A model generated the notes under the pieces. That model worked only from the letters and a program-made list of their open reading frames with translations. It was not told the DNA's origin and did no database searches. From Bacillus sp. FJAT-18017 (GTDB lineage: Bacteria > Bacillota > Bacilli > Bacillales > Cytobacillaceae), in assembly GCF_001278805.1 (NCBI RefSeq), contig NZ_CP012602.1, positions 4,127,501-4,191,500 on the forward strand: 64,000 nt of DNA, read 5' to 3'. The translations under genes were made by a program, and so were the position numbers. This document shows, piece by piece, positions 17,999-18,780 of the stretch; positions within the stretch are counted from its first letter, which is position 1; each line of letters starts with the position of its first letter.

Positions 17999-18169
17999 AA
18001 TAAAATTTGGTTTTTTATTATTAAGAAGACCTGAGTCCTTGAACAGAAAATCCCATTTTGTAAAAACAAGGCATAGGTGGAAATTATTCAGCTTGTTCCA
18101 ACATATTAAAAGTATTAAAATAAGCACCATGTCCATAGTGGAAACTCAATCTAATTAAAGGGGAAAACA

Positions 18170-18682
18170 ATGAGAATAAAACTTTCATGCCTTCTTTTCA
18201 TCCTCGTTCTAATTCTTTCAGCATGCGGCCAAGAAAAAATCGAAGGCTCTATGACTTTGCTTAATCAAAATAAAGAAGAAATATCCTTCCCCCAGGATAA
18301 ACCCACGTTGTTCTTTTTCCTTACCACGTACACCTGAACTCATTGCCAAACGCAACTGGTTCAGTTGCATGAATATATTCAAGAACTAGATGACTTGGAT
18401 GTCAATATGTATATCGTAAGCGGGGATACTCCAGAAGAACAACTCCTGTTATACAATGCCTTAAAAGAAAGGTTCGGCTACAGCTTACCTTTCGTTTCCG
18501 ATCCCAATCTAGAATTAATTGATCTTTTTGGCATGAAAAATGGTGATGCTGCTTACAGAGGTTACGGACTTTTAGATACCGATGGAACAGTTGTATTCTA
18601 TACGGTAAATGACTTGTGGGGAGAACAATTCGACAAGACGGTAAAAGAAATTAAAGCGGAATACAAAGCTATAGAACAATAA
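18170..18682 (+). CDS. thioredoxin-fold lipoprotein with in-frame TGA at the CxxC position (selenoprotein candidate or nonsense mutant)
   Basis: Read through the TGA at 18335-18337 (codon 56), the gene is a continuous 170-residue protein. It has AAAGGGG six bases before ATG 18170, a lipoprotein signal with LSAC (Cys19), PTLFFFLTTYT-x-THC, and a redoxin-like remainder (VSGDTPEEQLLLYNAL, PFVSDPN, YGLLDTDGTVVFY). The TGA takes the place of the first Cys of the WCPHC-type motif, giving x-T-H-C. Nothing else is broken. The next possible start (ATG 18365) has no ribosome site. Either TGA is read as selenocysteine or a TGC/TGT codon has just mutated. A strong terminator follows. Confidence 0.7.
18338..18372 (+). 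promoter_or_regulatory. SECIS-like stem-loop after the in-frame TGA
   Basis: Perfect 7-bp stem GCAACTG (18352-18358) and CAGTTGC (18362-18368) with loop GTT. The loop begins 21 bases after the TGA, with G as its first base. TCAT (18340-18343) can pair with ATGA (18369-18372) below an asymmetric bulge. This fits the general description of bacterial SECIS elements. Function is inference. Confidence 0.45.
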
Positions 18683-18729: not shown

Positions 18730-18780
18730 AGACTGCTGGCAAACTCGAAAGAAAAATGAGCTTGCCAGCAGTCTTTTTTT
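18730..18780 (+). terminator. terminator after redoxin gene
   Basis: AGACTGCTGGCAA and TTGCCAGCAGTCT arms with extra CTC/GAG pairing, then TTTTTTT. Confidence 0.85.

Follow-up and report, generated by a model that had tools for sequence, protein, structure and literature searches.

The 64,000-nucleotide stretch of Bacillus sp. FJAT-18017 DNA analysed here (NZ_CP012602.1, positions 4,127,501 to 4,191,500 of the forward strand; named as the window) carries at 18170-18682 a gene that, on sequence comparison, very probably encodes a selenoprotein. A conserved in-frame TGA, the selenocysteine (Sec) machinery of the host genome, an RNA element downstream of the TGA, a lipobox and the predicted fold make up the computed support. 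The explanation that best accounts for the whole, and which we hold with nearly the same confidence, is Sec insertion at UGA codon 56 of an exported lipoprotein that would have a peroxiredoxin fold with a UxxC active site (U, Sec) and undergo redox cycling. The gene and its signals, all on the + strand of the window, are as follows.

18157..18163, +: ribosome-binding site AAAGGGG, 6 nucleotides 5' of ATG (direct reading of the sequence)
18170..18682, +: predicted selenoprotein gene, putative lipoprotein of peroxiredoxin fold, 170 residues, Sec at 56 (frame, TGA-bearing homologues, PF00578, fold)
18215..18226, +: lipobox LSAC, codons 16-19 (translation and family rows)
18335..18337, +: UGA codon of the putative Sec (U56) that opens UxxC (frame; one TGA in 74/74 close matches)
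18344..18346, +: Cys59, last position of UxxC, aligned with the peroxidatic Cys of peroxiredoxins (alignment)
18352..18368, +: hairpin of the selenocysteine insertion sequence (SECIS) type, arms GCAACT and AGTTGC around the loop GGTTC, invariant loop G at 18359 (covariation, reduced synonymous change, folding)
18557..18559, +: Arg130 of YRGY, where peroxiredoxins have their conserved Arg (invariant in 25 rows; peroxiredoxin alignment)
18730..18774, +: intrinsic terminator hairpin followed by a U run (folding, -27.7 kcal/mol, z -5.41)

The 170-residue translation contains a single internal stop, TGA codon 56 (18335-18337) in the context TTYT*THC, and the frame ends with TAA at 18680-18682. The first-pass annotation, which was made from the letters of this stretch, had described one TGA interrupting an otherwise intact gene with a ribosome site, an LSAC lipobox and a terminator; the frame and the folding confirmed all of these, and the coordinates and hairpin distances it gave were found to be correct when the sequence was read. 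Exactly one TGA was present in each of the 74 close matches (E-values up to 7.9e-40) obtained from 72 of the 193 sampled genomes of the taxonomic family, and in every locus fetched for these matches it occupied the codon-56 place. A further 30 family genomes had only more distant rows among the matches listed, all of them 26-37% identical and also with one TGA, in a list that reaches about E 1e-5. The order sampled is, judging by its named members, Bacillales (NCBI name now Caryophanales). Here 78 of 397 genomes had a match with an E-value of at most 1e-8, and 75 of these had a TGA-bearing row, the order checks covering part of the rows. The other three were L178 and L179, which by eye are ordinary peroxiredoxin-type proteins with no TGA, and L177, a decayed copy. 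Other families of the order contained TGA-bearing types that are more divergent. In the class sample, 11 of 398 genomes gave a match, and these contributed a pair of TGA-bearing members from family f73 (G712 and G731), a distant TGA row (G592), a Cys form (L155 in G654) and a CPSC redoxin that is devoid of the RGY motif (L156 in G799), and the phylum search (398 genomes) returned matches only in the genome under study and in one genome of its own family.

The TGA was also found in 4/4 named relatives (Bacillus sp. FJAT-27225, Neobacillus sp. Marseille-Q6967, Bacillus sp. FJAT-27251 and Mesobacillus campisalis), which are not independent evidence because they are sequence-identical to some of the sampled genomes. 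The alignment of homologues at codon 56, proposed as a check in the first-pass annotation, showed that close relatives hold TGA and not Cys codons, and the residues beyond the TGA remained conserved in the 25-row alignment. Chance is excluded for this codon because it is conserved in 74/74 close matches, unlike one TGA in one gene. By these comparisons, the TGA is ancient and not a recent mutation. As a separate observation, the Thr codon 55 (18332-18334) just before the UGA was ACC in 63 of the 65 Thr-bearing sequences, a strong synonymous bias that may aid decoding or make termination less efficient.

The machinery for Sec was searched in the assembly of the window, which is one contig of 5.27 Mb. 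The selB, selA, selD and tRNA-Sec (selC) genes were all above their curated cut-offs, and the anticodon of tRNA-Sec was TCA (UCA in RNA). The absence of selB or selC, named earlier as an observation that would speak against a selenoprotein, was not found, since all four sel genes are present. The earlier annotation had left two choices, the insertion of Sec or a TGC/TGT codon that had recently mutated to TGA; with the sel genes present and the relatives carrying TGA, Sec insertion is supported. In addition, selD of the same genome has its own in-frame TGA (C1:2484086-2485012, locus L023), and a formate dehydrogenase gene (C1:2385239-2387260, locus L116; 794.9 bits, above cut-off) has one in-frame TGA, and both are likely to encode further selenoproteins of this genome. 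A further formate dehydrogenase match (C1:327676-328428) has one TGA and a score below the cut-off, and is likewise a probable selenoprotein gene.

The distribution of the gene was compared with that of selA, which was above the cut-off in 172 of the 193 family genomes. A TGA row was among the matches listed in 102 of these 172 genomes as against 0 of the 21 others, where the best match of any kind had an E-value of 5.1e-6. Similarly, when the order was compared by eye, TGA-bearing rows were found in 75 of 181 genomes with selA and in 0 of 216 others. These counts suggest that the presence of the family follows the Sec trait, with no exception in the two samples.

The sequence GCAACTGGTTCAGTTGC (18352-18368, 17 nucleotides) starts 14 nucleotides past the TGA, and in the window a three-base loop GTT starts after 21 nucleotides with G as its first base. 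The hairpin described in the first-pass annotation was upheld in its sequence, distances and loop G; its seventh, innermost pair is not conserved in the family, being formed in 42 of 138 distinct sequences and no better than in shuffles. The conserved element was found to be a 6-bp stem with a 5-nucleotide loop, the second loop base of which is G in 138/138. The inner variable pair joins the third position of codon 62 with the first of codon 66, each of which can change synonymously, and it was paired in 138/138 sequences (G-C 67, A-T 62, G-T 9) as against at most 116 in 2000 shuffles. The outer pair was formed in 131/138 (G-C 116, T-A 11, C-G 3, A-T 1; shuffles at most 114). When the six-pair stem was shifted along the sequence, pairing dropped from 0.99 to 0.11-0.37. 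In a 72-sequence tree, 15 and 11 changes were counted at the synonymous sites of codons 62 and 66, and synonymous change relative to expectation was 0.59 in codons 57-68, compared with 0.89 for codons 20-52 and 0.86 for codons 69-165. L185, a true member with UQLC, was excluded from the RNA counts because the script took an upstream TGA in frame, and L099 was excluded from the tree and codon counts for its frameshift. Covariation and reduced synonymous change together back the earlier reading of this hairpin as a SECIS-like stem-loop. It resembles the formate dehydrogenase SECIS (L116) in being a hairpin after UGA, whose loop has GGTC as in many family members (by eye), and differs from it in having another stem in another gene. 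Rfam gave no match for the window at gathering and none around the TGA at E up to 1.

Several observations weigh against the Sec reading or limit it. A kinship-aware treatment of the covariation came down to 7 independent pairs with support, of which 4.7 on average changed in the same direction and 0 in the opposite one (p 0.06-0.13 in a sign test), so that the raw pattern is strong and the kinship-aware statistic only suggestive. Four of the six stem pairs are nearly invariant and therefore uninformative as a test. The QLVEL residues encoded here are partly a protein motif, which also occurs in the distant CxxC redoxin P0164, so the stem is partly fixed by the protein. Furthermore, folding of 18335-18375 had been proposed, and the isolated stretch of the window was found to prefer another structure: of the 138 family 45-mers, 120 have the hairpin in their minimum fold, and the window's own 45-mer is not one of these. 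The hairpin came back when the first 9 nucleotides after the TGA, taken as ribosome-covered, were omitted, being then the minimum fold in 134/138 sequences including the window. The Fisher tests of co-occurrence with selA ignore the kinship of genomes, no conserved neighbourhood within about 4 kb points to the substrate or function, and the evidence for a Sec-containing product is computational throughout.

The protein itself was examined for its location and fold. Of 147 family rows, 141 had a lipobox-like Cys, which a pattern detected in 138 and inspection by eye in 3 more. As a side observation, the YKUTLC subgroup (L088, L092, L094, L095, L096 and L097) has lost the lipobox Cys (LSAFG) and keeps the UGA and the hairpin. 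The AhpC-TSA domain PF00578 matched at 53.6 bits against a cut-off of 26, and the AhpC-TSA model and solved peroxiredoxins were the best matches, which places the protein in the peroxiredoxin fold. The PxxxT/SxxC motif of peroxiredoxins is altered, in that its Cys remains (C59) while U56 stands for Thr/Ser and Thr52 for Pro, and because of this alteration the protein was not filed as a canonical peroxiredoxin. The active-site Arg is present as R130, in RGY or RGF in 140/147 rows, and Cys59, Gln62, Leu63 and Val64 were invariant in 25 rows. In the same 25-row alignment there was no conserved Pro near RGY, where an Arg stands, so the cis-Pro typical of thioredoxin, TlpA and ResA was not found. 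The first-pass annotation had proposed a redoxin with the TGA at the first Cys of a WCPHC-type site; the UxxC arrangement was retained and the scaffold was revised from thioredoxin to peroxiredoxin. The combination of PF00578 with UxxC is that of peroxiredoxin-like thiol:disulfide oxidoreductase selenoproteins. A PHROGs search gave no match. These features together indicate that the product is probably a surface-anchored redox enzyme of peroxiredoxin fold.

Beyond the computed features, our account of how the protein is made and works is inferred: the chemical insertion of Sec, the binding of SelB, export, and the redox reaction with its substrate and electron donor. SelB with Sec-tRNA(UCA) would bind the hairpin 14 nucleotides downstream and UGA 56 would be decoded as Sec. 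The 170-residue lipoprotein would then be exported and anchored at the outer face of the membrane, where its peroxiredoxin fold would present UxxC in place of T/SxxC with the peroxiredoxin Arg retained. Sec56 and Cys59 most likely cycle between the selenol/thiol and selenenylsulfide forms, and the protein may reduce peroxides or disulfides outside the cytoplasm. The choice between these activities is evenly balanced, as there is about an equal chance that Sec is decoded as proposed and the enzyme works as a thiol-disulfide reductase with Sec56 as the attacking residue, and not as a peroxidase. UxxC is the motif of thiol:disulfide oxidoreductases and here U replaces the Thr/Ser of the peroxiredoxin site, and a lipoprotein location would fit work like that of ResA or StoA. 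The missing cis-Pro-type Pro near RGY, the retained peroxiredoxin Arg and the best matches to AhpC-TSA and solved peroxiredoxins argue against the reductase reading.

The database record of the family was examined next to the Sec reading. The family profile listed 120 database proteins, and 100 of them are pieces of 90-113 amino acids starting 3' of the TGA, which where named are called redoxin domain-containing protein, AhpC, peroxiredoxin or hypothetical. The other 20 (P0001-P0004 and P0028-P0043) have W at the Sec place (20/20), and full-length versions of a paralogue type described below have W in 15/18 and neither U nor C in 3. Such entries would be expected if the TGA were read otherwise than as Sec, that is, by Trp or near-cognate suppression or by a code in which TGA means W, and W is also what a gene caller set to TGA=W writes. 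All of the W-bearing entries come from contigs of 2.4 kb or less, the RNA element covaries, the TGA lies within UxxC, the presence of the family tracks selA and the nearest Cys form comes from a genome that gave no selA match, and this makes a Trp reading very improbable. The headless entries could be real if translation stopped at the TGA and restarted at TTG 18365 to give two products, the second being the database protein of about 105 amino acids. This downstream product would be without the first three strands, UxxC and the signal sequence, the invariant Cys59, Gln62, Leu63 and Val64 all lie 5' of the restart, and no ribosome site was seen by eye 5' of 18365; we give it equally little credence.

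A second member of the family is encoded in the same genome (C1:5100035-5100445, - strand; locus L100, 5968-6465) as a redoxin lipoprotein with FTGNTUDYC. Its hairpin is GCAGCTGGTCGAGCTGC, and the 17-mer is identical in 15/16 sequences of the paralogue type. In three database relatives of this paralogue (P0138, P0143 and P0144) both U and C are lost, and these proteins are possibly redox-dead. The closest Cys counterpart found was L155 with TCSAC, in a genome (G654) that gave no selA match, whereas selA was present in four other genomes tested alongside. In the RNA of L155, A stands against C at a pair that is kept in all counted TGA members, and the loop G is gone; L155 may have arisen from a Sec form by a change to Cys, or may have had Cys from the start. 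The second CxxC redoxin, L156, is more distant than L155. Broken copies were observed at L099/L146 (G062, frameshift) and L177 (G331, decay), and both genomes keep selA. A rival reading, a Cys gene with either a nonsense mutation or an error of sequencing, giving a dead protein or a false TGA, would look alike in one genome, and these two relatives are truly broken. It is the least credible explanation of all and already refuted by the TGA-bearing relatives, since the 74 close matches and likewise the 75 TGA-bearing order genomes, as far as their rows were fetched, are in frame on both sides of the TGA, frameshifted G062 excepted, with conserved residues 3' of it.

The family was compared with known selenoprotein and redoxin families. 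No model of NCBIfam release 20 reached its cut-off for the window protein or for two relatives scanned alongside, and NF040769, NF053656 and NF040737 stayed below cut-off in all 3 proteins. Matches were also listed for 12 paralogue rows and for 25 rows, the cut-offs being given for the first row of each set. The SelL-related redox protein NF040769 and the TUGYCR redoxin NF053656 are Sec/Cys redoxins with weak profile similarity, the window protein scoring 34.3 against 120 bits and 12.6 against 100 bits, respectively. The TxxU selenoprotein peroxiredoxin and PrxU (NF040737) share the peroxiredoxin fold and conserved Arg. The window protein scored 14.5 against 270 bits for NF040737; TxxU proteins have Sec at the peroxidatic place, whereas here Sec stands three residues earlier and Cys is at that place. 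StoA and ResA of Bacillus, which we take to be extracytoplasmic CxxC proteins without Sec, are redoxins with weak matches far below cut-off. A 2026 inventory of 119 families lists peroxiredoxin-like UxxC and redoxin UxxC selenoproteins (PMC13188914), its Table 1 giving WP_010940744.1 and HEU0032618.1 as known UxxC peroxiredoxin-like proteins, and its main text has 0 matches for 'bacill'. The UxxC peroxiredoxin-like thiol:disulfide oxidoreductase and the 'Redoxin family protein' (PMC13188914, PMC9312934) share with the window family the AhpC-TSA/Redoxin domain, UxxC and UGA-encoded Sec. The hosts that a table passage of PMC1794560 names for peroxiredoxin-like UxxC proteins are anaerobic Deltaproteobacteria, whereas the window family consists of lipoproteins of Bacillales, for which close counterparts with Cys are very few. 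The window family may be related to these known groups, the comparison being by description only, and may even be a branch of the older UxxC peroxiredoxin-like group; we class it provisionally as a new family within a kind of protein already known. No paper on the family was found in the open-licence PMC literature by titles and abstract starts. The deep-Sep paper states that its method may miss selenoproteins without Cys homologues (PMC12013277), and for the window family close Cys homologues are nearly absent.

The surroundings of the gene were also checked. A conserved operon was sought in 48 relatives (up to 4 kb on each side) and the window, and no neighbour group reached beyond 13 loci once the 3' part of the gene itself was set aside. 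The two commonest neighbours resembled, by eye, an oxalate/formate-type MFS (major facilitator superfamily) carrier and an FdhF/YdeP-type oxidoreductase. The terminator at 18730-18774 was missed by the pattern scan, the loop limit of which was 8, and was found by folding. A scan for promoters yielded a single site where shuffled sequence gave 2.3 on average, and hence no promoter is claimed.

The family occurs in 72/193 sampled genomes, with at least 30 more having distant TGA rows, and the database entries examined for it either lack the N-terminal part or translate the Sec codon as W. Many of its host bacteria are, we presume, aerobic soil dwellers. Tentatively, and at somewhat less than even confidence, we suggest that it forms a nearly Sec-only clan of membrane-anchored peroxiredoxin-like selenoproteins across spore-forming Bacillales, previously undescribed, which is usually lost with the Sec trait and not converted to Cys, which may act as a Sec-assisted peroxidase outside the cytoplasm with Sec at the peroxiredoxin Thr place and Cys as the peroxidatic residue, and which with its paralogues may help to keep the Sec machinery. 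If true, Bacillales would have a surface Sec enzyme in addition to FdhA and SelD, the SECIS would be one with known sequence freedom that is usable for annotation, and the peroxiredoxin active site would provide a natural 'U for Thr' change that is open to assay.
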